Source: a bacterium
GTDB lineage: Bacteria > Patescibacteriota > Patescibacteriia > Patescibacteriales > GWC2-42-12
DNA length: 34,126 nucleotides
NCBI GenBank assembly: GCA_030650415.1
Contig: JAUSEG010000040.1
Location: 1 to 34,126 of the forward strand
Direction of reading: 5' to 3'
The position numbers were made by a program, and so were the translations under genes. Position 1 is the stretch's first letter, and the number at the start of each line of letters is the position of its first letter. Below, in pieces: positions 2,146 to 32,340 of this stretch. Below the pieces are notes generated by a model, which worked only from the letters and a program-made list of their open reading frames with translations, searched no databases and was not told the DNA's origin.

Positions 2146-3300
2146 TATAAACTCTTTATTCGGTTCGGTCTTTAATTTTTGCCAAGGCGTAAAGTCTTTT
2201 CTCTTGGCGCGAAAATAGCCGGCCGCGGCGATCATGGCCGCGTTATCCGTGCAATATTTAAACTCGGGAATTATTAATTTAGCGCCATCCAATCTATTTT
2301 TTACGGCTTGCGCTAACTGATTTCTCAATTCAAGATTCGCGGCTACGCCTCCGGACAACATAATAGTTTGGCAGTTAAAATCTCTGGCGGCTTTTACGAT
2401 TTTAGAAACTAAAACCTCAACCGCGGCTTGCTCAAATTCATACGCATAACCGGAAATTCTCTTTTTCCAGATCTTATCTCTTTGTATGGCGTACCAAAGC
2501 GCCGTCTTTAACCCGGAAAATGAAAAATCATAATCGCCGGAATTAATCATCGGCCTGGGCAAGCTTATATCTTTCAACTTCTTGCCTCTAGCTTTTACCG
2601 CTTCGGCCGCGACCGCCGGCCCGCCCGGATAACCTAAGCCGAGAAGTTGCGCGGCTTTATCAAAAGCCTCGCCGGCCGCGTCGTCACGCGTCTCGCCCAG
2701 CACTCGATATTTTCCATGTCCGCTCATTAAAACTAACATCGTATGCCCGCCGGACACCGTCAAAATAATCGCTGGAAATTTAATTTTATCTTGTATTTTG
2801 TATTTTGTATTTTGTATTCGTTTGGAAATTGAAAATTGAAAATTGAAAATTTCGCTAATTGGCCTTAGCCAATTCGCGTAGATATGCCCTTCAATATGAT
2901 TAACTGCTACGACCGGCGAGCCCCAAGCATAGGCCAAGGTCTTAGCCGTTTCCACCCCCACCAATAACGAAGTCACCAAACCCGGTCCAACCGTCACCGC
3001 GATCGCATCGATTTTTTTAGCCCCCTTTAATAAAGAGCCTGTCCCGAGCTCACCGAGGGAGGGTAAGGGGGATTTAATTCCAGCCTTTGCCAGCGCCTCA
3101 TTAACCACCGGCAAAATATTTAAAACATGCTCGCGCGCCGCCACTTCCGGCACCACGCCGCCGTATTTTTTATGAATCTCAATTTGCGATGACACCACGT
3201 TTGATAAAACCTCCACCTTATCGCCAACACCGCGCACTACCGAAGCCGCGGTTTCATCGCAAGATGTTTCTATACCAAGTATAATAAGTTGTTTTTTCAT
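2143..3300 (-). CDS. tsaD: tRNA N6-adenosine threonylcarbamoyltransferase TsaD
   Basis: TsaD transfers the threonylcarbamoyl group from TC-AMP to A37 of ANN-decoding tRNAs, together with TsaB and TsaE. Seen here are the N-terminal GIETSCDETAAS, the metal-binding NHIEGHIYAN, the VSGGHTMLV nucleotide-site segment, KAAQLLGLGYPGGP, and LSGGVAAN plus YCTDNAAMIA near the C-terminus. At 385 residues it is about 40 longer than a typical TsaD of roughly 340. The excess corresponds to two repeat-derived in-frame inserts: residues about 77-94 (containing [10 protein letters not shown]) and about 148-171 (containing NFQFSIS). The conserved motifs around the inserts are intact, so the gene is probably functional. 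The stop overlaps the T run of the convergent terminator. Confidence 0.95.
   Translation of the reverse strand: MKKQLIILGIETSCDETAASVVRGVGDKVEVLSNVVSSQIEIHKKYGGVVPEVAAREHVLNILPVVNEALAKAGIKSPLPSLGELGTGSLLKGAKKIDAIAVTVGPGLVTSLLVGVETAKTLAYAWGSPVVAVNHIEGHIYANWLRPISEIFNFQFSISKRIQNTKYKIQDKIKFPAIILTVSGGHTMLVLMSGHGKYRVLGETRDDAAGEAFDKAAQLLGLGYPGGPAVAAEAVKARGKKLKDISLPRPMINSGDYDFSFSGLKTALWYAIQRDKIWKKRISGYAYEFEQAAVEVLVSKIVKAARDFNCQTIMLSGGVAANLELRNQLAQAVKNRLDGAKLIIPEFKYCTDNAAMIAAAGYFRAKRKDFTPWQKLKTEPNKEFI
2791..2860 (-). repeat. AT-rich repeat inserted in frame in tsaD
   Basis: Short tandem units of the types ttttcaa and tacaaaa on the coding strand. They encode NFQFSIS followed by a Gln/Asn/Lys-rich stretch that has no counterpart in ordinary TsaD. 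A related segment encodes the same NFQFSIS in valS at 30937-30956. Confidence 0.75.
3021..3071 (-). repeat. Palindrome-bounded 51-bp repeat inserted in frame in tsaD
   Basis: On the coding strand the segment is bounded by cccccTT and AAggggg arms and contains a 28-base core that recurs identically in copA (7451-7479 region). It is read in the same frame in both, giving [10 protein letters not shown]. Its length is a multiple of three. Confidence 0.8.
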
Positions 3301-3463: not shown

Positions 3464-3736
3464 ATGACCCCGCAAAAAACCAAAGCCTTAATCAATTTTA
3501 AAAAAACCAAGAGCCTGATGGAAAAGATTATCCAAATGGTGGAGACCGATGAATATTGCGTAAATGTCATGCAGCAAAACCTGGCGGCTATCGGCTTATT
3601 GCGCTCGGCTCACGAAATGCTGATGGAAGGGCATCTAAACAGCTGCTTTAAAATGGCTTTTGAAACTAAAAACTCCCTTAAGCAAAAGCAGATGACTAAC
3701 GAAATATTAAAAGTCACTAAACTATTTAATAAATAA
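3464..3736 (+). CDS. csoR: CsoR-family copper-sensing repressor
   Basis: A 90-residue all-helical metal-sensitive repressor. The Cu(I)-binding triad of CsoR is present with exact spacing: C32, then 24 residues, H57, three residues, C61 (HLNSC). The helix-2 region LAAIGLLRSAH is also typical of the family. CsoR forms tetramers that bind DNA without a classical HTH and release it on Cu(I) binding. It is the first gene of a run of copper genes on the same strand and is preceded by a promoter with a matching pseudo-palindrome, so it most likely represses its own operon. The paired Cys/His ligands argue against the formaldehyde- (FrmR) and nickel-responsive (RcnR) relatives. Confidence 0.92.
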   Translation: MTPQKTKALINFKKTKSLMEKIIQMVETDEYCVNVMQQNLAAIGLLRSAHEMLMEGHLNSCFKMAFETKNSLKQKQMTNEILKVTKLFNK

Positions 3737-3740
3737 TTAT

Positions 3741-3968
3741 ATGATGTATTATAACTTTCCTCTTTTTGGCTTTTTCATGCCTCTATATATGATTATCGTT
3801 TGGATTATCATTATCGGTGGCATCGCGCTTCTAATAAACTGGTCGATTAAACAAAATCAGCCGGGTAAAATCAACGAGAAATCGGCTCTGGATATTTTAA
3901 GAGAACGGTATGCCAAAGGTGAAATTGATCAAAGAGAATTTGAGGCTAAGAAAAAAAAATTAAGCTAA
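3741..3968 (+). CDS. Small membrane protein with SHOCT domain
   Basis: A 75-residue protein with one hydrophobic segment (about residues 10-34) followed by a C-terminal SHOCT motif (ALDILRERYAKGEIDQREFEAKKKKL). SHOCT is a short C-terminal domain of unclear role, often attached to membrane segments and found near metal-resistance genes. It starts four bases after the csoR stop and so is translated from the same mRNA. Two adjacent Met codons (3741 and 3744) are both possible starts. Confidence 0.85.
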   Translation: MMYYNFPLFGFFMPLYMIIVWIIIIGGIALLINWSIKQNQPGKINEKSALDILRERYAKGEIDQREFEAKKKKLS

Positions 3969-4025: not shown

Positions 4026-4454
4026 ATGCCAAAAAACATCACTAAAATTTATCAGCGAACCGCCTTTATAATATTGGCCATTATTATTTCTGGCCTGCTT
4101 AATATTTGCTTGTTTACTTTCCAGGCCAAGGCCTCGACTGCCCCTATGCCGACACCTAAATTAAATTTTGCTTATGATAACGAAGGCGATTGTATCGCCA
4201 AACCCCTGCCCGAACCCAGGGAAACCATCAATCGAGCAGCCGCGCCCATGCCGGCATGTTGCCTGGCGCAAAACCGTAATTATAATGCCGTGGTAAATAC
4301 GGCCAACGACAAATCAACTCCGGCTTTCACCGATCTGGTAATGTTACCGGCAGACAACACATATTTTGAAAATTACTCTACTAATTATACTTCACGATTA
4401 GCCTATCCTCCGCCAGCGGGCTTAGCGCTGGCTTCAATCGTCATTAGAGAATAA
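4026..4454 (+). CDS. Small secreted or membrane-anchored protein of unknown function
   Basis: A 142-residue protein with a basic N-terminus and a hydrophobic segment (about residues 12-33) ending in FQAKAS, which fits a signal peptide or an N-terminal anchor. The mature part is rich in Ala, Pro, Asn and Thr, with several Met-Pro pairs (APMPTP, APMPAC) and one CC pair. I recognise no domain. Its position in the copper operon and the Cys/Met content are consistent with an extracytoplasmic copper-binding role, but that is only inference. Confidence 0.7.
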   Translation: MPKNITKIYQRTAFIILAIIISGLLNICLFTFQAKASTAPMPTPKLNFAYDNEGDCIAKPLPEPRETINRAAAPMPACCLAQNRNYNAVVNTANDKSTPAFTDLVMLPADNTYFENYSTNYTSRLAYPPPAGLALASIVIRE

Positions 4455-4547: not shown

Positions 4548-6443
4548 ATGACTAATGTTCAAAAACTTACTGTGCCGATTAAGGGCATGCATTGCAAATC
4601 CTGCGAAATTCTGGTTGAAGAGGAGCTAAAAGAAGTAAAAAATGTAGAAAAGGTCGTGGTCAATCACCTAAAGGACACGGCGGAAATTTATTACCATAAA
4701 AAAAGCCCAGACCTAGAGGCTATAAAGGCGGCCATAGAAAAAGCCGGCTATAGTTTAGGTAAAGAAGAAAAAAAGGGCTGGTTTAGTAAAAACAAAGATG
4801 ATTATCGGGAACTGGGCGTAGCCGCGCTCTTTTTAGTCGGTCTCTACTATATACTTAAAGGTCTGGGCCTAACCAGTTTAAACATTCTGCCATCGGGTAG
4901 CGACGGCGGCATCACCGTCTCGTTAATTTTACTTATCGGTTTAACCGCTGGTTTTTCCACTTGCATGGCCTTGGTCGGCGGCTTGGTTTTGGGTCTGTCT
5001 TCAAGACACAATGAACTGCATCCCGAAGCCACGGCTATGGAAAAATTCCGACCGCATTTATTCTTTAATTTAGGCCGGGTTCTAGGTTATACTTTGCTCG
5101 GCACGCTCTTAGGCCTCCTAGGTTCCGCCATCCAACTATCCACTTTTTCTTTAGGCATTCTAACTATTTTTGTCGGCCTGGTTATGCTTATTATGGGACT
5201 CCAGCTCGTAGAAATTTTCCCCTGGGCCAATAAACTGAAGCTTACCCTGCCTAAAGGCCTGAGCCGCGTTTTGGGCATCGGCGGCCATCAGAAAGAATAC
5301 AGCCATAAAAGTTCAGCCATCTTAGGCGCCTCAACTTTCTTTTTGCCATGCGGCTTTACCCAGGCCATGCAAGTCATAGCCATCAGCACCGGCAGCTTTT
5401 TCTACGGCGGAGTCGTCATGGGTCTATTCGCCTTAGGTACTGTCCCCGGGCTTTTAAGCTTAGGCGGCTTAACCTCCGCGGTTAAAGGCGCCTTCGCGCG
5501 AAAATTCTTTAAGTTCGCCGGCCTGGTAGTCTTACTTTTTGCCTTATTTAATATTTCCAATGGGCTGGGTTTAACCGGCCTGAACTTGGCTTACGGCCAA
5601 GCGGAAAATATAAATCTAAACGACCCGAATGTAACCCTGGAAAACGGCGTGCAGATTGTCAGGATGAAAGAACTAGCCAACGGCTACTCGCCTAATAACT
5701 TTACTATTAAGCAAGGTATTCCGGTTAGATGGATAATCGACGCCCAAGCCCCATATTCCTGCGCTTCCAGCTTGGTTATGTCTAAGTATAATATCCGCAA
5801 AACTCTGGTTAAAGGCGAAAATATTATTGAATTCACTCCCAAAGAAATCGGCCGTATTCCTTTCTCCTGCTCCATGGGCATGTACACGGGCGTTTTTAAT
5901 GTCGTTGATAAAAATGGCCAAGCGCCAACGACCATCAATTTAAATTCAACGCCAACCGCCAAGGCCAGCGCTGGTGGCTGCGGCGGAGGCGGAGCAGCAA
6001 CGGCCAGCGCGGGTGGCGGAGGCGGTTGTGGAGGCGGCGGCGCGGCTAGCGGTGCATCAGCCGGCGGTTGCGGAGGCGGTTCGGGCGGCGGGGGTTGCGG
6101 TTGCGGCGGAGGCGGAGCGCAAATTAAAAAAGACGCGACTGATACTATCGCGGAAGTTCAGGGCGACACGCAAATAATTAACGCTACTTACACAGCTAGC
6201 AATTTTTTGCAGCCAAATTCCTATAAAGTTAAAGCTGGCACCAAAGTAAAATTTAATATTGACGTTAAAGACGACGGTCGGGGTTGCGGTTACGCCATCA
6301 TGATCCCGGGGTTATATAATAACGCAGTTCCGCTTAAAGCCGGCCAGCCGATCACTATGGAATTTACGCCCACGGCTAGAGGTGATTACGAAATTACCTG
6401 TGGCATGCAAATGATAACCTTTGGTACCATTATTGTAGAATAA
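4548..6443 (+). CDS. HMA - SafE-like membrane - cupredoxin - Gly/Cys-rich - cupredoxin fusion protein
   Basis: A 631-residue multidomain protein. Residues 1-75 are a heavy-metal-associated domain with GMHCKSC (C16, C19). Residues about 85-350 hold six to seven hydrophobic helices resembling the TauE/SafE or UreH-like membrane domain, with Cys in GFSTCMALVGG and FFLPCGFTQAMQ. Residues about 365-455 form a cupredoxin-like domain ending in SCSMGMYTG. Residues about 475-525 are almost only Gly, Ala, Ser and five Cys. The last about 90 residues are a second cupredoxin-like domain ending in CGMQM. The C-x-M-x-M endings are plausible copper ligands. Cu(I) would be received by the cytosolic HMA, moved by or near the membrane domain, and bound outside by the cupredoxins. 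Each part is a known family; I do not know a characterised protein with this exact order. Confidence 0.85.
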   Translation: MTNVQKLTVPIKGMHCKSCEILVEEELKEVKNVEKVVVNHLKDTAEIYYHKKSPDLEAIKAAIEKAGYSLGKEEKKGWFSKNKDDYRELGVAALFLVGLYYILKGLGLTSLNILPSGSDGGITVSLILLIGLTAGFSTCMALVGGLVLGLSSRHNELHPEATAMEKFRPHLFFNLGRVLGYTLLGTLLGLLGSAIQLSTFSLGILTIFVGLVMLIMGLQLVEIFPWANKLKLTLPKGLSRVLGIGGHQKEYSHKSSAILGASTFFLPCGFTQAMQVIAISTGSFFYGGVVMGLFALGTVPGLLSLGGLTSAVKGAFARKFFKFAGLVVLLFALFNISNGLGLTGLNLAYGQAENINLNDPNVTLENGVQIVRMKELANGYSPNNFTIKQGIPVRWIIDAQAPYSCASSLVMSKYNIRKTLVKGENIIEFTPKEIGRIPFSCSMGMYTGVFNVVDKNGQAPTTINLNSTPTAKASAGGCGGGGAATASAGGGGGCGGGGAASGASAGGCGGGSGGGGCGCGGGGAQIKKDATDTIAEVQGDTQIINATYTASNFLQPNSYKVKAGTKVKFNIDVKDDGRGCGYAIMIPGLYNNAVPLKAGQPITMEFTPTARGDYEITCGMQMITFGTIIVE

Positions 6444-6544: not shown

Positions 6545-6748
6545 ATGAAAATACAATTCAAAATAACCAATATGACTTGCGCTTCCTGCGCCTTAGTCAA
6601 TGAAAAAAATTTGCTGAAAGCCAAAGGCGTATTGAGCGCCAAGGTTGATTTCGCTAGCGGCCAGGCCGAAGTGGAATACGACGAAAAAACTATCGGCGAA
6701 CAAAAAATTAAGGAGCTAATAACTAAAAACGGCTACGGCGTAATATAA
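6545..6748 (+). CDS. Stand-alone HMA copper chaperone (CopZ-like)
   Basis: A 67-residue ferredoxin-like HMA domain with the metal-binding MTCASC motif (Cys at residues 13 and 16) and the usual C-terminal KNGYGV. Proteins of this size act as cytosolic Cu(I) chaperones that hand the metal to the HMA domains or entry site of CopA-type ATPases. The gene lies between the fusion protein and copA. It is separated from copA by a 108-bp inverted repeat, so its mRNA may be partly uncoupled from copA. Confidence 0.88.
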   Translation: MKIQFKITNMTCASCALVNEKNLLKAKGVLSAKVDFASGQAEVEYDEKTIGEQKIKELITKNGYGVI

Positions 6749-6881: not shown

Positions 6882-9851
6882 ATGAAAAAACATCTAAAAT
6901 TGAACATAACCGGCATGCACTGCGCTTCCTGCGAAAAGATTATTGCCATGGAGCTCGGCGATTTGCCCGGAGTAAGCAACATAAAAATCAACTGGTCAAC
7001 CGGCGCGGGCGAACTTGATTTGGATTTAGAAAAAAACCAAGACCAAAAGGTCATAGAGGCCATAAAAAAAGCCGGCTACGAGGCTCAAATTACTAATAGC
7101 CAAACTGAATTACCGAACACAGTTGAAACCATCCCTAACGGCTCCTTAACGTTAAAACAAGTGCCAGCCGGCAAACCCTTAAAAATCAAGCTGGAAACTA
7201 GCGTACTGGCCGAGGGCCGCGTCTTAACCGGCGCGGACGGCCAACCCTATTTTGAGGGCAAAATAAAAAATGATAAAAAAGCGGAATTTGATGTGCCCGA
7301 AGATGACAATAATTCCAGAAACTATATTGATCAGTTGGTTAAATCGGCCAATCTGTCCAATCTGTTTGACAAAATCATGGGCACAGAGAAAACTAAAAAT
7401 AACCCCCTTCAAAAGGGGGATGAAGGGGGTTTTAAAACCTCCCCCGCCCCTTCCCTCGGTGAGCTCGGGACAGGCTCTTCACAAGGAGGGCATACCAGCG
7501 CCAATAAAAGAATCAGTTTATCGCTGTCCGGCATGCACTGCGCTTCCTGCGCCAATATTATTGAGCGCTCGCTTAAAAAAGTTCCTGGCGTTAAAGAAGG
7601 CAATGTGAATTTCGCCGCGGAAAAAGCTTCCATCCTGTTTGATGAAACTAAAACCAATATCGCCGACTTAATCGCGGCCGTGAAAAATGCCGGCTATAAG
7701 GCCCAAATGGTCGATCCTAGAGATACTGAATTTGAAGCCAAAAAAAGGCATCATGAAACGCAAAATTACTTCAAAAAATTTACCATCAGCGCGATTTTAA
7801 GTTTACCCATGCTCTATTTCATGTTGCTTGATTTCTTTAAATGGCTCCCGGGCGCAAACGCCCTGCCGCCTTATTTCGGCATTGTCTCCTTGATTTTAAC
7901 CACGCCGGTGCAATTCATTATCGGCTGGGGTTTTTATAAAGGCATGTGGTCGTCCTTAAAAATGAAAACTTTCAACATGGACAGTCTGATTGCCATCGGC
8001 ACTTCCACGGCTTACCTTTACAGCTTAATCTATTTTCTCATCTACTTGGCTAAAACCGGCTCGCTAATCGGTCTGGCTGGAGAAAAAATTCCGGAGCTGT
8101 ATTTTGAAACCGCGGCCTTCTTAATTACCTTCGTCACTCTTGGCAAATGGCTGGAAATCCGAGCTAAAGGCAAGACTTCCGATTCCATAAAAAAACTCAT
8201 GGGCCTTCAAGCTAAAACCGCGCGCGTCAGCCGAGCCGGTACGATTAAAGATATTCCGATTGATGAAGTAGTTAAAGGCGATATTATAATCGTCAGACCG
8301 GGCGAAAAAATTCCGGTTGATGGAAAAATCGTTAAAGGCGATTCGGCCGTGGACGAATCCATGCTAACCGGCGAAAGCATTCCGGCGGAAAAACATCCCG
8401 GAGATATGGTCTTCGGCGCCACGATCAATAAAAACGGCAGTTTTGAATTTGAAGCCACGCGCGTTGGCGCGGAAACCGCTCTGGCGCAGATTATCCGCGT
8501 AGTCGAAGAAGCGCAAGGCTCTAAAGCGCCGATCCAGGCATTCGCGGACGCGATTTCCGCCCGCTTTGTGCCGATTGTCATTGCTATCGCGGTTATGACT
8601 TTCGCCGTCTGGTTCTTTCTCTTGGGCGCTAGCTTGGCTTTTGCTTTAATGGCTTTTACAGCCGTTATCGTTATTGCCTGCCCCTGCGCTCTGGGCTTAG
8701 CCACGCCAACCGCGATTATGGTCGGTACGGGCAAGGGCGCCGAGTACGGCATCCTGGTTAAAGGCGGCGAACCGCTGGAAGCGGCCTGCAAAATTAAAGC
8801 GATTATTTTCGATAAAACCGGCACGTTAACGAAAGGCAAGCCGGAAGTTACTGATGTTTTAATTTTTTCCGGTCATGACGAAGAAGAGATTATCGCCACC
8901 GCGGCCAGCTTGGAAAAATTATCCGAGCACCCTCTAGCCGAAGCGATTTACAACTACAGCCAAGAAGAAAATATCGATTTAAGCGAAGCAAAAAACTTCC
9001 AGGCCATACCCGGCCATGGCGTAGTCGGTGAAGTTAACGGTCAAAAATATTTTCTCGGCAACGCCAAAATGATAACTGAAATCGCCGGTTTGGATATGGA
9101 AAAAATCAAAAGAAAAATAAATAAATTGGAAGAACAAGGTAAAACCGTCATGACTCTGGCTACCGACAAAGAAATTATCGGCGCCGTGGCTGTGGCTGAT
9201 ACGGTTAAAGAAACCTCTAAGGAAGCTGTGGCTAAACTCATGAAAATGGGCATTGAAGTCTATATGATTACCGGCGATAACGCGCGCACGGCGAAAGCCA
9301 TCGCGCGAGAAATCGGCATTACTAACGTTTTAGCCGAAGTTCTGCCTGAAGACAAAGCTAATGAAGTTAAAAAATTACAGGCTGGCGGTAAAAAAGTCGG
9401 CATGGTCGGCGACGGCATAAATGACGCGCCGGCTTTAGCGCAGGCCGACTTGGGTATTGCCATGGGCTCGGGCACTGACGTGGCTATGGAAACCGGCGGG
9501 ATAGTTATCGTAAAAAACGATTTAAACGACGTGGTCAGCGCCATTCAGCTTTCTAAAGAGACTTTGGCGAAAATCAAGCAGAATATGTTTTTTGCTTTGT
9601 TCTATAACGTCATCGGTATTCCGATCGCGGCCAGAGTCTTCGCTTTTGCCGGGCTAATCTTAAAACCGGAATTGGCCGGCTTAGCCATGGCCTTAAGCTC
9701 AATTTCCGTGGTAACTAATTCCTTGTCCTTAAAATATTTCCGTCCAGGCAAAAAGAATTACTTATCTATAGTGGCTCCGGTCATTATGGTTATCCTCTTC
9801 AGCTTTATTTTCTTTGAGTTCGCTAAATTAAGTTCGGCCGGCATGAAATAA
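6882..9851 (+). CDS. copA: Cu(I)-exporting P1B-type ATPase CopA
   Basis: A 989-residue copper-transporting P-type ATPase. Two N-terminal HMA domains have GMHCASC (C14/C17 and C220/C223). Eight membrane helices are expected from about residue 295. Other hallmarks are the transport motif CPC at 600-602, the phosphorylation site D644 in DKTGTLTKG, the SEHPLAEAI nucleotide-site segment and [12 protein letters not shown] from residue 843. It would pump Cu(I) out of the cytosol using ATP. It is longer than usual because of about 125 residues between the HMA domains. Part of this is a conserved-looking beta-rich piece; part (residues about 174-203) is repeat-derived and contains [10 protein letters not shown], as in TsaD. 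It ends the copper operon and is followed by a strong terminator. Confidence 0.96.
7403..7490 (+). repeat. Composite palindromic repeat inserted in frame in copA
   Basis: A cccccttcaaaaggggg hairpin with a trailing gaagggggtt copy is followed by a segment with cctccc and ggaggg ends. The latter contains the 28-base core also found in tsaD. The insert lies in the linker between the two HMA domains, where extra residues are tolerated. Confidence 0.8.
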
Positions 9852-15747: not shown

Positions 15748-17805
15748 TTATTTTTTAACCCTTAAAAATTTAGCATTTATCGCCACCATCACCGTGCTTA
15801 AAGACATAAAGACCGCGCCTAAAGCCGGCGAAAGTAAAATTCCGTAACCGGCCAAGACTCCGGCGGCTAAGGGAATGGCAATAACATTATAGCTGGTGGC
15901 CCAGGCTAAATTTTGCACCATCTTTTTGTAGGTGGCTTTACCGAATAAAATAAGCGAAGCAATGTCTTCAGGATTAGAATTCACTAAAATTATATCCGCG
16001 GTTTCGGCGGCAATATCCGTGCCGCTGCCGATGGCGATCCCGACGTTAGCCTGAGCTAAGGCTGGCGCGTCGTTTATGCCGTCGCCCACCATAGCCACGA
16101 ATTCTCCCTTGGCTTGCAGCTCTTTGACCTTTTCCTGCTTCTCATGAGGCAGAACGCCGGCAAAATAGCCATCCAGCTTTAATTCTTCAGCCACGCTCTT
16201 GGCCGAACTTTCGTTATCGCCGGTCAGCATCCACATCTTAATGCCTTCGCGCCTCAACGATTTAATGGCCTCGAATGATTCGTCGCGGATGGTATCAGAA
16301 AGATTTAGAGCGCCGATTAAACTTAATTTTTCATCGTTAACCACGATGAAAATCATGGTGCCTTCTGCTTGATTTAAATGATCAGGCACGACTAAACCCA
16401 ATTCTTTTAAATAACCCGGACTGGAAATAATAAACTTTTTATTTTCTATAATTGCTTCTACGCCTTTGCCTTTAATGGCTCGAAATTTTTCGGCAACCAA
16501 GTTTTTGACTCCTCGGCTTTCGGCTTCTTTAATCACCGCTCTGGCAATAGGATGTTCGGAATTTTTCTCTAAAGCTTCGGCCACGGCCAGGATTTTATTT
16601 TCATCATAACTATTATCTAAAGCGTAAATCTTTTTAACGCTGAAGGTTCCTTTAGTCAGCGTGCCGGTTTTATCAAAAATAATGATAGTGATCCGCCTGG
16701 AATTTTCAAAGGCCGTCCGATTCCTGATTAAAAGCCCGTTTTGGGCGGATAGAGCCGTGGAAATGGCTACGACTAAGGGAACGGCTAAGCCTAAAGCGTG
16801 CGGGCAGGCGATAATTAAAACCGTGGCCGCCCGTTCTATGGCAAAAGCTAAATCTCGACCGAGCGCCAGCCAAGTTATGAAAGTTATGGCGCTGATGGCC
16901 ATGGCCGAAAGAGTCAGCCAGAACGCCGCCCGGTCGGCTAATAATTGCGTTTTTGACTTTGAGCTTTGCGCGTCTTTGACTAATTTTATCACTTTAGAAA
17001 GATAGGTTTCCTCGCCTACTCCGGCTACTCGTATTTCCAGCGACCCCTCTTCGGTGATAGAACCGCCGATAACTTTATCGCCGGATTGTTTAGCCACCGG
17101 CTTAGCTTCGCCGGTCAACATGGATTCATTAACAAAACTTTCACCCTTAATAACTATGCCATCAGAAGGAATTTTTTCGCCCGGTTTCACTAAAATAACG
17201 TCGCCTTTTTTAAGATCACTAACGTTTATTTCAACTGCCCCATTACCTTTTTTAAGATGCGCTTTGTCCGGAATAAGCTGAGAAAGCTTTTCTAACGCCC
17301 GGGAAGCTCCCATAACCGATTTCATTTCCAAGTAGTGTCCTAAGAGCATAATATCAATCAGCGTGGCCAGCTCCCAAAAAAATACTTCGCCTCTCAACCC
17401 GAAGGTAACCGCCGAGCTGTAAAAATAGGCGACGCTGATAGCCAATGAAATAAGCGTCATCATGCCGAGCGAGTGATGCTTAATTTCACCTAAAGCGCCT
17501 TTTAAAAATGGACTGCCGCCGAAAAAAAATAAAAATGACGAGATTAAAAATAAAACTAATTGATCGCCGGCAAATTTAAAAGAGACATTTAATAAATTCT
17601 GAATAAAGGGCGAAAGAAATAAAACCGGCAGAGTCAAAACCAGGGAAATATAAAATTTCTTTTTAAAAATTTCCACCGAATGCCCGGCGTGCTTATTGTA
17701 ACCGGCTTGATGATCATGGTCATGTTTCATCTCATGGCTAGACTCCATTCCGGCCATAGCTGAAGGCTTGCCCATCGGCTCATAACCATAATGACCGTGC
17801 TCCAT
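15748..17805 (-). CDS. copB: CopB-type copper P1B ATPase with His-rich N-terminus
   Basis: A 685-residue P-type ATPase. Instead of HMA domains, it begins with a His/Met-rich tail (MEHGHYGYEPMG ... HEMKHDHDHQAGYNKHAGH), typical of CopB (P1B-3) pumps. The transport motif is CPH (C334-P335-H336), not CPC, which also marks the CopB class associated with Cu(II)/Cu(I) or Ag. The phosphorylation site is D378 in [18 protein letters not shown] and [12 protein letters not shown] are present. It would complement CopA, which lies 6 kb away on the other strand. Its upstream region holds a copA relic and a possible structured RNA rather than an obvious operator. Confidence 0.94.
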   Translation of the reverse strand: MEHGHYGYEPMGKPSAMAGMESSHEMKHDHDHQAGYNKHAGHSVEIFKKKFYISLVLTLPVLFLSPFIQNLLNVSFKFAGDQLVLFLISSFLFFFGGSPFLKGALGEIKHHSLGMMTLISLAISVAYFYSSAVTFGLRGEVFFWELATLIDIMLLGHYLEMKSVMGASRALEKLSQLIPDKAHLKKGNGAVEINVSDLKKGDVILVKPGEKIPSDGIVIKGESFVNESMLTGEAKPVAKQSGDKVIGGSITEEGSLEIRVAGVGEETYLSKVIKLVKDAQSSKSKTQLLADRAAFWLTLSAMAISAITFITWLALGRDLAFAIERAATVLIIACPHALGLAVPLVVAISTALSAQNGLLIRNRTAFENSRRITIIIFDKTGTLTKGTFSVKKIYALDNSYDENKILAVAEALEKNSEHPIARAVIKEAESRGVKNLVAEKFRAIKGKGVEAIIENKKFIISSPGYLKELGLVVPDHLNQAEGTMIFIVVNDEKLSLIGALNLSDTIRDESFEAIKSLRREGIKMWMLTGDNESSAKSVAEELKLDGYFAGVLPHEKQEKVKELQAKGEFVAMVGDGINDAPALAQANVGIAIGSGTDIAAETADIILVNSNPEDIASLILFGKATYKKMVQNLAWATSYNVIAIPLAAGVLAGYGILLSPALGAVFMSLSTVMVAINAKFLRVKK

Positions 17806-22961: not shown

Positions 22962-24299
22962 TCAGTATGGCGATATCATCGCCCGAAAGAAACTGCCCCT
23001 GGCAACTTCTTCCCACTCCCAAGGCGCGATGACTGGAACCGAGATCCTGTTAGTCACTCCTGCCGGCAAGACTGCGGTAAAGATCGTCTTCCAGGGACCC
23101 ATTGGTGTGGGAGCGCGTTCAAGTGTCTGCCAAAAGAACGGACCGGACCAATATGCCGTGTTCGTCGCATAGGGTATCCCCCAATGGACGACAACCGGCC
23201 GAGCCTCGTCGGCAATTGGTTGACCGTTTATCGTTGCCGCGGAGGTGTATCCGTTCGTGAAACTTAACCCCCTATCGGCAAGCGCGGTCTCCCACTCGGT
23301 TCTGGGAACCATTTTCAGATTCTCGATTCCTAGAAGCACAGGATCGCAGCAAACGGGGTCTCCCCACTCATTTGTGCCTGGTCTGATAACGGTTGTAACC
23401 TCAAACGACTGTTCGAGGTTTGGTGGCGCGACACTCGCCGCCGATAAACCGACACTAGGGGGCCCCGCAGGACAGGTTCCTAAATAACTGTATGCCTCCC
23501 ATAACGGATCGACAGAGGCATACCCGCTCAAGTTTCCTTGTCCGGGAGGCGGTGCCGGCGGAGGCGGAGGGGCCCCGAAATGATCCTGACAGAACCGGAT
23601 CAGTCGGTAGACTATGATACCGGCTACAATTATTATCAGGATCACTACAATCCAGACCGCATCCGCCGGGCGAATCCCGTCCTGGTGCTGGTGCGCCGGA
23701 TGGAGGTAGCCAGCCTCCACCAGGTAGTTCTCCGCGTACTTCCGGAGGGCGACCTCGTCGTCGGGATTGATCCACCCCTTGTCACTGGGCTTAAGCCCTT
23801 TGTTCACCACCACCTCGACGGTGTTAGTTTGGGCGATGCCGTTAGCGCTCCCGCTACCCGATGACACTTTGACAGCCACACTGGCCGTCTTCACTGTCTG
23901 ACCCTGCACCGGAAGCGATACAATCGCCGCTACGAGGAGGAGCGACACTGTTATCTTCAAAGCCGCAACCAAGGCCTTTCGTCCGCCCGGCCAGAACACG
24001 ACTGCCAGAACTGCCAACGGCGCCAGCAACGGAACGATACTTCGGAGCTCCCCACGCCCCAAGGCCGCAATACCGACTCCACATGCGATCCCTGCACCAA
24101 CGATCGCAATTGCGAAGACGACAAACGCCGCCGCTACCTTCGCTTGGTTGAGTGCCCATCGCCCGACAAGGGCGACGATGACGAAAATCACGCCCCCGAC
24201 ATCAACGGGGTTTGTTGTATAGGAGGCCCAAATGCCGCAGCCGATTATGGCTGCGATGATCGAGGCTTCTTTCTCAAGAAGCCTTTTTAAGGTCGTCAT
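22962..24299 (-). CDS. Multi-TM protein with verrucomicrobial-type C-terminus, function unknown
   Basis: A 445-residue protein. Four hydrophobic helices lie in the first 150 residues. A polar region (VKTASVAVKVSSGSGSANGIAQTNTVEVV) follows, then a fifth helix (VWIVVILIIIVAGIIVYRLI) and a Pro-rich linker (APPPPPAPPPGQG). The last 180 residues are beta-like and end with SGPFFWQTLERAPTPMGPWK ... SFFRAMIS. That closing pattern (W-x-x-L-E-x-A ... G-P-W ... FFR) is like the C-terminal repeat I associate with exported Verrucomicrobia proteins. I start at 24299 because GAAAGGA lies seven bases upstream; the longer frame adds 14 charged residues. Codon use is strongly GC-biased against flanking genes, so transfer is likely. 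Confidence 0.7.
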   Translation of the reverse strand: MTTLKRLLEKEASIIAAIIGCGIWASYTTNPVDVGGVIFVIVALVGRWALNQAKVAAAFVVFAIAIVGAGIACGVGIAALGRGELRSIVPLLAPLAVLAVVFWPGGRKALVAALKITVSLLLVAAIVSLPVQGQTVKTASVAVKVSSGSGSANGIAQTNTVEVVVNKGLKPSDKGWINPDDEVALRKYAENYLVEAGYLHPAHQHQDGIRPADAVWIVVILIIIVAGIIVYRLIRFCQDHFGAPPPPPAPPPGQGNLSGYASVDPLWEAYSYLGTCPAGPPSVGLSAASVAPPNLEQSFEVTTVIRPGTNEWGDPVCCDPVLLGIENLKMVPRTEWETALADRGLSFTNGYTSAATINGQPIADEARPVVVHWGIPYATNTAYWSGPFFWQTLERAPTPMGPWKTIFTAVLPAGVTNRISVPVIAPWEWEEVARGSFFRAMISPY

Positions 24300-24440
24300 A
24301 CAGTCCTTTCTTTTTGTTTTTAATTTGCTTTCTGTTTGCAATGCCTGCTATCTACCGAGTAGACAGACTTATGGCAACTTACAGAAAAACCTTACATCTT
24401 TAGAGTAAACTTGTCAAGGATGACCATAATGTGGTGTAAT

Positions 24441-29565: not shown

Positions 29566-32340
29566 ATGTCTAACAAAGAACTGCCAAAAGCCTATAATCC
29601 GGCCGACTATGAAGACGCCATTTATAAAAAATGGGAGGAATCGGGATTTTTTAATCCGGACAATTTACCTTGTGAAATCCCGACTAAAGGTCGGGGCGCA
29701 AAGCGCGTTTCACAGGGTGAAAAAGGCGAGCCATATTCCATAATGATGCCGCCGCCGAACGTTACCGGCGTTTTGCATCTTGGCCATGCCTTAGAAAACT
29801 CATTAATGGATATTATGGCGCGCTATCAGCGGATGAATGGCAAAAAAGTTTTGCTTCTGCCCGGCACCGATCACGCGGCTGTGGCTACTCAGGCAAAAGT
29901 GGAAAAAATATTAATTGAACAAGGCATAAAAAATCCGCGCCAAGAATTCGGCAGGGAAAAACTTTTGGAAAAAATCCGTAAGTATGCCGAAGAATCAAAA
30001 TCCACAATTTTAAAACAGATTAAAAAAATGGGCACTTCCTGCGATTGGTCGAGGCTAGCCTATACTTTTGACGAGGCCAGAAACTCGGCAGTCAATACGG
30101 TTTTTACAAAGATGTATAATGACGGTTTGATTTATCGCGGTAAGAGAATTGTTAATTGGGATGCTAAACTGCAAACCACCATTTCCGACGACGAGATCGT
30201 CTGGCAGGAGGAAAAAGTTCCGTTTTATTATCTTCAGTACGGTCCATTCGTCATCGCCACGGCCAGGCCGGAGACGAAGTTCGGAGATAAATATGTGGTT
30301 ATGCATCCGGATGATGAAAGGTATAAGAAGTATAAGCATGGCGATAAATTTGAGTGCGAATGGATTAACGGCAAAGTTTCGGCTACGGTGATTAAAGATA
30401 AAATAATTGATCCTGAATTCGGCTCCGGAGTTATGACTATCACGCCTTGGCATGACATGGTTGATTTTGAAATTAGCCAGAGGCATAACCTAAGCGGCGA
30501 GCAGATTATTGATTTTAACGGTAAGCTCCTGCCAATCGCCGGTGAATTCGTCGGCATGAAAATTTTAGAAGCCAGACCGAAAATTGCCGAAAAGTTAAAA
30601 GCCAAGGGTTTACTCGTTAAAGTGGAAGAAAATTATCTGCATCGGGTAGCCAAGGGCGATCGCAGTAATAGTTCGGTGGAACCGCAAATTAAGGAACAGT
30701 GGTTTGTGGATGTTAATAAGACTATCCCGAGTAAGAATAAAAGTTTGAAAGACTTAATGCGTGAAGCGGTAACTGTTGGCCATAATAATGATCCGAAACA
30801 AAAGGTAAAAATCACGCCGGAGAGATTCGCTAAAACTTATTTACATTGGATAGATAATTTGCGCGACTGGTGCATCTCGCGCCAGATTTGGTGGGGTCAT
30901 CGCATCCCTGTTTACTATCGTAAACAGGGAATGACCAATTTTCAATTTTCAATTTCTAATGAAATGCAAAATGCAAATGCCAAAGATGAAATATATGTTG
31001 GTACTGGACAGCCTAGGGGCGAAGGCTGGGTTCAGGATGAAGATACCTTAGATACCTGGTTTTCTTCCGGGCTATGGACATTTAGCACATTAGGCTGGCC
31101 AGAGCAGGCTAAGAATTTAAAAACCTTTCATCCGACCAGCTGGATGCAGATGGGTTATGAAATATTGTTTTTCTGGATGGCGCGCATGATTTTAATGTCT
31201 ACTTATACTTTAGATCAGATTCCTTTTAAGGATGTCTATATTCATGGCATGTTGAGAAATGAAGCCGGCAAGAAATTTTCCAAATCATCAGGCAATAATA
31301 TTGATCCCTTGGAAGTCATTGCTAAATTCGGCACCGACGCCCTGCGTTTAAGCGTTATCGCCGGCATCGCCCCGGGGAACGATTCAAAATTTTATAAAGA
31401 AAAGGTGGAAGGGGCAAGGAATATGGTGAATAAGTTATGGAATGTGGCTAGGTATATAATTATAAATTGTCATTCTGGAGGGAGCGAGGAACGAGCGACC
31501 GATAGAATCTCGTCGGGATTCTATCGCTCCGCTGGCGCTTCGCTCCAGAATGACAGCTTAACCGCGGCCGATAACTGGATTTTAAATAGATTGCAGACTT
31601 TAATCGCGGAAGTTTTGGCTGATTTTGATAATTTCAGATTTTCCGAAGCCGCGGAACGGTTGCGGGTTTTTACCTGGGATGATTTAGCGGATTGGTATTT
31701 AGAAGTAAGCAAGTTTGAAAAAACTTACAAGAAAAAAGAGCTTTTGCAATATATTTTAGAAAATATTTTAAAGCTCTGGCATCCGTTTATGCCGTTTGTT
31801 ACCGAAGTTTTATGGCAGGAAATCGGCAAGAAAGAATTATTGATGGTGGAGAAGTGGCCGAAATCAGATGCTATCGCTTCGCTCCAGCATGACAAGGGAG
31901 AATTTGAGGTGATAAAAGATATCGTTGTTGCTATTCGTAACGCGCGAGCGGAAAATAAAGTTGAGCCGGCCAAAAAAGTTAAAGCGGTTATTTACGCGGG
32001 TAAGAAAAAAGCGCAGATTGAATCGCAAAGGGAGTTGATAAAATCTTTGCGCACCGGCTTGAGCGAGTTGGAAATCGAGACTGATGGTGAAAAAATCGAT
32101 GGCGCGATTTACGCGGCTGTGGGAGAGATAGAAATTTATTTACTAGGCGCGGTGGACAGCGAAAAGGAAAAAATCAGATTGGAAAAAGAGCTTGCCAATT
32201 TAAAAAAAGTTATTAAAGCGGCGGAAGTCAGACTGACGAATAAAGAATTTACCGATAAGGCGCCGGCCGCGATTGTAAAAAAAGAAAAAGACAAGCTCAA
32301 GGGATGGCAGGTGGAGTTAAAAAATTTAAAGAACAGCTGA
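29566..32340 (+). CDS. valS: Valyl-tRNA synthetase
   Basis: A 924-residue class Ia synthetase that charges tRNA-Val. PPPNVTGVLHLGHAL supplies the HIGH motif (H71-L-G-H74), the editing domain follows (TARPET near residue 235), then WCISRQIWWGHRIPVYY, DEDTLDTWFSSGLW, and KFSKS at 570-574. An anticodon-binding helical domain and a C-terminal coiled coil (about 865-920) complete the protein. Four repeat-derived inserts lie in frame: about 36-50, 448-473, 635-664 and 768-777. All catalytic motifs remain intact, and the inserts fall before the Rossmann fold, in a loop after WWGHRIPVYY, and around the anticodon-binding domain. Start codon at 29566 fits the family N-terminus. Confidence 0.96.
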   Translation: MSNKELPKAYNPADYEDAIYKKWEESGFFNPDNLPCEIPTKGRGAKRVSQGEKGEPYSIMMPPPNVTGVLHLGHALENSLMDIMARYQRMNGKKVLLLPGTDHAAVATQAKVEKILIEQGIKNPRQEFGREKLLEKIRKYAEESKSTILKQIKKMGTSCDWSRLAYTFDEARNSAVNTVFTKMYNDGLIYRGKRIVNWDAKLQTTISDDEIVWQEEKVPFYYLQYGPFVIATARPETKFGDKYVVMHPDDERYKKYKHGDKFECEWINGKVSATVIKDKIIDPEFGSGVMTITPWHDMVDFEISQRHNLSGEQIIDFNGKLLPIAGEFVGMKILEARPKIAEKLKAKGLLVKVEENYLHRVAKGDRSNSSVEPQIKEQWFVDVNKTIPSKNKSLKDLMREAVTVGHNNDPKQKVKITPERFAKTYLHWIDNLRDWCISRQIWWGHRIPVYYRKQGMTNFQFSISNEMQNANAKDEIYVGTGQPRGEGWVQDEDTLDTWFSSGLWTFSTLGWPEQAKNLKTFHPTSWMQMGYEILFFWMARMILMSTYTLDQIPFKDVYIHGMLRNEAGKKFSKSSGNNIDPLEVIAKFGTDALRLSVIAGIAPGNDSKFYKEKVEGARNMVNKLWNVARYIIINCHSGGSEERATDRISSGFYRSAGASLQNDSLTAADNWILNRLQTLIAEVLADFDNFRFSEAAERLRVFTWDDLADWYLEVSKFEKTYKKKELLQYILENILKLWHPFMPFVTEVLWQEIGKKELLMVEKWPKSDAIASLQHDKGEFEVIKDIVVAIRNARAENKVEPAKKVKAVIYAGKKKAQIESQRELIKSLRTGLSELEIETDGEKIDGAIYAAVGEIEIYLLGAVDSEKEKIRLEKELANLKKVIKAAEVRLTNKEFTDKAPAAIVKKEKDKLKGWQVELKNLKNS
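29671..29714 (+). repeat. Palindromic insert 1 in valS
   Basis: Outer arms tgtgaaa/tttcaca enclose two hairpins, cccgac/gtcggg and gcgc/gcgc. It encodes a Lys/Arg/Gly-rich stretch (residues 36-50) with no place in the ValRS core. Confidence 0.8.
30906..30985 (+). repeat. Hairpin plus AT-rich insert 2 in valS
   Basis: A perfect ten-base-arm hairpin (ccctgtttac/gtaaacaggg) is followed by ttttcaa repeats encoding NFQFSIS, then by atgcaaa units encoding an Asn/Gln/Ala stretch. The middle part matches the tsaD insert at 2791-2860. Confidence 0.8.
31468..31555 (+). repeat. Palindromic insert 3 in valS
   Basis: Thirteen-base perfect outer arms (tgtcattctggag and its complement) with an inner gatagaatc/gattctatc stem. 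It is a full copy of the family seen between genes at 6454-6534 and is translated as part of ValRS. Confidence 0.88.
31866..31894 (+). repeat. Half-copy insert 4 in valS
   Basis: Matches the right half of the same palindromic family (gatgctatcgcttc then gctccagcatgaca), encoding DAIASLQHDK between two ValRS helices. Confidence 0.75.

Follow-up and report, generated by a model that had tools for sequence, protein, structure and literature searches.

The copper operon and its membrane protein

The window (the whole stretch of 34,126 nucleotides that was analysed) carries a csoR-copZ-copA operon in which a single uninterrupted frame encodes a membrane protein of 631 aa. The genes of the operon and the domains of this protein are as follows:

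3464 to 3736, forward strand: CsoR-family copper-sensor repressor with C32-H57-C61 (PF02583, 1.5e-12; spacing read off the sequence)
3741 to 3968, forward strand: small membrane protein of the operon, with a SHOCT domain (Pfam)
4026 to 4454, forward strand: small secreted Cys-containing protein with no assigned function, similar ORFs lying upstream elsewhere (ORF, neighbour comparison)
4548 to 6443, forward strand: whole gene, 631 aa, HMA-TM-DsbD_2-Cup1-hinge-Cup2 (ORF, Pfam, AlphaFold2 model)
4569 to 4751, forward strand: HMA domain, residues 8–68, with C16 and C19 of the CxxC motif invariant (PF00403, 1.1e-13)
4794 to 4862, forward strand: membrane helix TM0, residues 83–105, connecting HMA to the core (AlphaFold2 model)
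4926 to 5546, forward strand: DsbD_2 six-helix core, residues 127–333, with invariant C139 in helix 1 (4962 to 4964) and C268 in helix 4 (5349 to 5351) (PF13386; structural match to CcdA)
5631 to 5912, forward strand: Cup1, CupA-type cupredoxin with predicted ligands C405, C441, M443 and M445 (4f2f, 2.8e-13; CupA, 2.6e-12; Foldseek 4f2f/4f2e)
5937 to 6122, forward strand: Gly/Ala/Ser/Cys hinge, residues 464–525, with C478, C494, C508, C517 and C519, predicted disordered (model, linker analysis)
6165 to 6440, forward strand: Cup2 cupredoxin, residues 540–631, with C580, C618, M620 and M622 (Cupredoxin_1 above cut-off; strands in the model)
6545 to 6748, forward strand: CopZ-like HMA metallochaperone (PF00403, 2.7e-13; CopZ model, 4.7e-13)
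6882 to 9851, forward strand: Cu(I) P1B ATPase of CopA type; two HMA domains, CPC motif (TIGR01511, 4e-186; CPC read off the sequence)

The C32-H57-C61 spacing of the repressor is that of CsoR. The operon and its conservation strongly support the role in copper that the earlier note had proposed for the protein. A protein similar to the CopA of 6882 to 9851, used as query, was found in 74 of 80 homologous loci, and by a strict count at least 65 of the 80 have a same-strand P1B ATPase of more than 400 aa no more than 2 kb downstream. No recurring client cuproprotein was found among the clustered neighbours of these 80 loci; among the groups that did recur, named by eye, were DsbA-like proteins of the thioredoxin fold, regulators of two-component systems, and small proteins that are secreted or lie in the membrane. 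Secreted Cys proteins like that of 4026 to 4454, ending in PP...SVxxRE or similar, recur upstream in L052, L055, L056, L061, L062, L097, L102 and other loci; Pfam searches on examples, trimmed or retyped, found nothing convincing. In L096, L103, L107, L115, L120 and L121 the upstream gene is a different one, whose small membrane product has two Cys of CP type and ends in a conserved GILHPKI-like sequence.

Pfam searches and the AlphaFold2 model agree on the order of the domains: HMA, one additional membrane helix, the six-helix DsbD_2 core, cupredoxin, hinge and cupredoxin. Besides HMA, for which both the PF00403 profile and the CxxC are present at the N-terminus, Pfam detected DsbD_2 (4.2e-33, score 115 for a cut-off of 24.9) and two stretches of Cupredoxin_1 (1.8e-17). 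The model, built from a 65-row alignment, has a mean pLDDT of 82 and a pTM of 0.69; confidence is good for the HMA domain, for the two cupredoxins and for most of the helices, and pLDDT falls below 50 in the hinge and at residues 111–120. The composition read from the letters alone (HMA, membrane domain, two cupredoxins and a Gly/Cys hinge) was thus upheld, except that 'SafE-like', used for the membrane domain, comes from a product name in databases, whereas Pfam gives DsbD_2, with no TauE match up to E=1, and the best solved structure is CcdA. Similarity to the MerTP fusion was likewise rejected (NCBIfam NF033556, 43.6 bits for a cut-off of 180, in the HMA part only), and a search by tblastn for a phage origin gave no match.

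In the model, six further helices come after the one at residues 83–105; breaks occur at 136/138 and 265/269, and C139 and C268 are located at these breaks of helices 1 and 4. Comparison of the core-alone model with the PDB returned CcdA (5vkv) as top match (probability 0.97, TM 0.46–0.48, rmsd 7.2), with a weak E-value of 0.096, so that it stands out from the other matches without being strong. A relative from Acetoanaerobium also matches DsbD_TM (3.4e-9). Because a profile search of PDB sequences with the core gave no match at E≤10, the link to CcdA rests on structure and Pfam. The core is like the CcdA/DsbD electron transporters (PDB 5vkv; Pfam DsbD_2, DsbD_TM) in its six helices and in the helix-1 and helix-4 Cys at breaks, but the 631-aa protein lacks a thioredoxin-like domain and has HMA and cupredoxin domains instead.

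The mean number of Lys and Arg residues over the 65 rows is 2.9 before TM0, then 0.5, 3.7, 0.3, 5.9, 0.1 and 3.3 in the successive loops, and 1.4 past the last helix; the loops predicted to lie inside thus average 3.7, 5.9 and 3.3, and those predicted outside 0.5, 0.3 and 0.1. This alternation predicts that the HMA domain lies inside and the cupredoxins outside, as the earlier note had supposed, rather than in the cytosol, a placement that would speak against its reading.

Cupredoxins, hinge and relatives

The census across Patescibacteria that had been proposed detected a homologue at E≤1e-10 in 162 of the 380 genomes searched, including the genome studied here. Seven residues (C16, C19, C139, C268, C405, C441 and M443) do not vary among 29 diverse members. 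The alignment of these members, which was not seeded on Cys motifs, is the basis for the invariance of C16/C19 and C268; in loci L052 to L131 the conservation of these residues is partly built in, as they were included in the scan patterns. Since homologues occur in 162 of the 380 genomes and seven residues are invariant in the 29 members, the architecture is more than a chance association. The form with HMA, membrane domain, two cupredoxins and Cys hinge is a variant of an architecture that recurs.

By sequence, Cup1 matches the metal-binding domain of CopA (4f2f, 2.8e-13) and CupA (2mry/4f2e, 2.6e-12) of Streptococcus pneumoniae, with profile values of 1.1e-15 and 7.3e-16, respectively. These two domains are its best Foldseek matches (CopA domain, TM 0.85, rmsd 1.4 Å; CupA, TM 0.88, rmsd 1.2 Å). 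A lack of cupredoxin fold had been set beforehand as the result that would speak against the claimed domains; the structure search found the folds. In CupA, Cu(I) is bound by C74 and C111 at site 1 and by C74, M113 and M115 at site 2 (PMC5646241). C74, C111, M113 and M115 align with C405, C441, M443 and M445 of Cup1, which are present in 65 of 65 rows. Cup2 is more distant (phmmer, 0.011 with CupA and 0.0075 with CoxII), and its C580, C618 and M620 are kept in all 34 rows that have this domain, M622 being shared with one other row only. By sequence, fold and ligands, these domains fall in the CupA class of Cu(I) cupredoxins and are predicted to bind Cu(I); this identity had been overlooked in the first reading.

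Cup1 resembles the S. pneumoniae domains in sequence, fold, its four ligands and the context of a copper-export operon. Those are single cupredoxins, CupA being anchored by one helix, whereas here a CcdA-like core, linked to an HMA domain in the cytosol, carries two cupredoxins that are predicted to be outside. In S. pneumoniae, CupA and the CopA domain are described as acting on copper at the cytosolic face, ahead of its export, and as handing Cu(I) to CopA (PMC7558416), so homology to CupA in itself implies no outside role. For the protein described here, copper handling on the cytosolic side is contradicted by the predicted outside placement (charge bias, 7-helix model).

The cupredoxins are joined by 62 residues (30 Gly, 12 Ala, 6 Ser and 5 Cys); the earlier note was right about the composition and the five Cys of this Gly/Ala/Ser stretch and had put its length at roughly 50 residues. 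A linker motif C-x(2,16)-C-G(G)-C is present in 26 of 44 distinct two-cupredoxin homologues, and 13 of the 44 have no linker Cys. Many homologues have one cupredoxin only and no hinge Cys, and 14 single-cupredoxin proteins have a C-terminal tail with at least two Cys, including the nearest relative (L052), which lacks Cup2 and whose gene ends immediately past the Gly/Cys motif. Four apparent single-cupredoxin loci (L083, L091, L096 and L130) proved to be two-cupredoxin genes that are interrupted by a shift of frame or by N. These broken genes have hinge Cys, those of L130 being hidden where its linker reads N, and all four were left out of the counts of hinge motifs, linker Cys and single-cupredoxin tails. 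In a tree built from 116 cores, 18 changes are required to account for the two-cupredoxin-plus-hinge pattern, so that it was often gained or lost; it is clustered all the same (0 of 500 shuffles as low). The hinge of 4548 to 6443 is an expanded version. To judge by the conservation of the three-Cys motif, the hinge belongs to the family at large and is more than a spacer; it is a putative site for Cu(I) clusters.

Beyond Patescibacteria, the distribution was sampled through plasmid records only. In these records, DsbD_2-cupredoxin proteins are annotated as 'sulfite exporter TauE/SafE family protein'. Those of Chlorohelix, Deinococcus and Tsukamurella (Chloroflexota, Deinococcota and Actinomycetota) share with the patescibacterial protein DsbD_2, a CupA-type cupredoxin and an HMA partner, but in them this partner is encoded on its own, by the gene that immediately follows the one for DsbD_2 and cupredoxin, and there is one cupredoxin and no hinge. 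In Acetoanaerobium noterae, HMA, DsbD_2 and cupredoxin are fused (L139) and the gene lies directly before copA, as in our protein, from which it differs in having one cupredoxin and no Gly/Cys hinge. In Manganitrophus, a cupredoxin of the same type is found close to the start of a P-type ATPase. As HMA is fused to the DsbD_2 core in one place and encoded by an adjacent gene in another, it is tied to this core functionally.

Copper, electrons and the membrane core

In the best reading, the protein handles Cu(I), passing either Cu(I) or electrons for it via the core to CupA-type sites at the surface. It may well be a copper-tolerance membrane protein that acts with CopZ and CopA and relays Cu(I) through the core to the outside sites, a role that we find plausible without calling it probable. 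CopZ would load Cu(I) onto the CxxC of the cytosolic HMA domain, from where it would be passed through the Cys139/Cys268 pair to the outside Cys2Met2 sites; Cup1, Cup2 and the Cys hinge would then keep copper as Cu(I) at the surface. We infer the outward direction because the operon is for export, and Cu(I) appears a likelier cargo than electrons because HMA is joined to the core by fusion or gene adjacency. Several points weigh against a relay of Cu(I): the core resembles an electron transporter and not a metal channel; the CopA of the same operon already exports Cu(I), so that a second route needs a reason; the S. pneumoniae homologues are placed at the cytosolic face; and many relatives of the protein make do with a single cupredoxin and lack hinge Cys. 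The route from cytosol to cell surface in one chain that the earlier note had suggested is compatible with the data and is weakened by this resemblance to the dithiol electron transporter CcdA. In its explicit form, an exchange of ligands within one polypeptide would carry Cu(I) through the membrane, from the HMA CxxC to the Cys pair, the CupA-type sites and the tether, without the protein hydrolysing any ATP itself, as a second route beside CopA; this we place on the doubtful side.

Because the core resembles CcdA, electrons rather than copper may cross the membrane. The core would take electrons from a cytosolic thioredoxin via Cys139/Cys268 and re-reduce the Cys pairs of the cupredoxins (and hinge), which would convert Cu(II) to Cu(I) and retain it, so that the protein would act at the surface as a cupric reductase that traps Cu(I). 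The best structural match of the core, the DsbD_TM match of the Acetoanaerobium relative and the position of both membrane Cys at helix breaks all point in this direction. Moreover, CupA is able to reduce Cu(II) in vitro, for which its Cys depend on an electron source that has not been identified (PMC5646241), and in copper tolerance ScsB, which is related to DsbD, maintains the copper-binding ScsC in its reduced state (PMC8900818). This suppressor of copper sensitivity is alike in that a DsbD-type membrane protein serves an outside Cu(I)-binding protein (PMC8900818), but the partner has a thioredoxin fold, and the system includes neither HMA nor cupredoxin. The fused or adjacent partner of our core is a metal-binding HMA domain and not a thioredoxin-like one, and the match to CcdA is weak by E-value, so we regard a transfer of electrons as unlikely, if a serious candidate. 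The passage of copper and that of electrons could also be combined.

The second proposal of the earlier note, an assembly factor for a surface cuproprotein, emerges weaker from the analysis. The clients of such a metallation factor could be two small cupredoxins encoded elsewhere in the same genome, one a likely lipoprotein (150 aa), the other membrane-anchored (186 aa; L135, contig C34) and encoded beside a gene for a ferric-reductase-like flavoprotein. However, no client gene is regularly nearby, the operon carries an export ATPase and a CsoR-type repressor, and in the same genome COX1 has no match and COX2 and multicopper oxidase have sub-cut-off matches only. Maturation of a client is less likely than Cu(I) handling, and we consider it improbable. 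Equally little probability goes to a passive surface sink, in which the cupredoxins and hinge would bind outside or CopA-released copper on a membrane part that is a mere anchor: the invariant Cys/Met of Cup1 and the recurrent hinge Cys would suit it, but an anchor needs neither invariant membrane Cys at helix breaks nor a linked HMA domain.

If Cu(I) crosses the CcdA-like core, the fold would be serving a new purpose; the version with electrons, which is testable, would answer where those that re-reduce the Cys of CupA come from (PMC5646241). Either would bear on how very small genomes may manage surface copper, a manner of transmembrane copper handling that nobody appears to have studied. 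No functional description of the architecture was found among open-licence papers, several of them represented by titles or abstracts, an absence that carries little weight. The sulfite-exporter annotation of the relatives outside Patescibacteria hides their link to copper.

Other features of the contig

A second P1B ATPase is encoded at 15748 to 17805 on the reverse strand; it has a CPH motif and a His-rich N-terminus and is CopB-like by eye. The G+C content is markedly higher (0.58–0.61) at 1 to 2049 and 22962 to 24341, which encode a Gfo/Idh/MocA oxidoreductase and an unrelated-looking protein; these stretches are possibly foreign or misassembled. Two repeats (2797 to 2851 with 30936 to 30984, and 6455 onward with 31531 to 31894) lie in the coding sequences of tsaD and valS or in intergenic DNA. 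Another interspersed repeat, with the core CCCTCGGTGAGCTCGGGACAGG, is found in frame at 3033 to 3072 in tsaD and at 7440 to 7479 in copA, where it sits between the two HMA domains. It has four copies in the genome, versus none for the reversed control, and recalls protein-coding palindromic elements.
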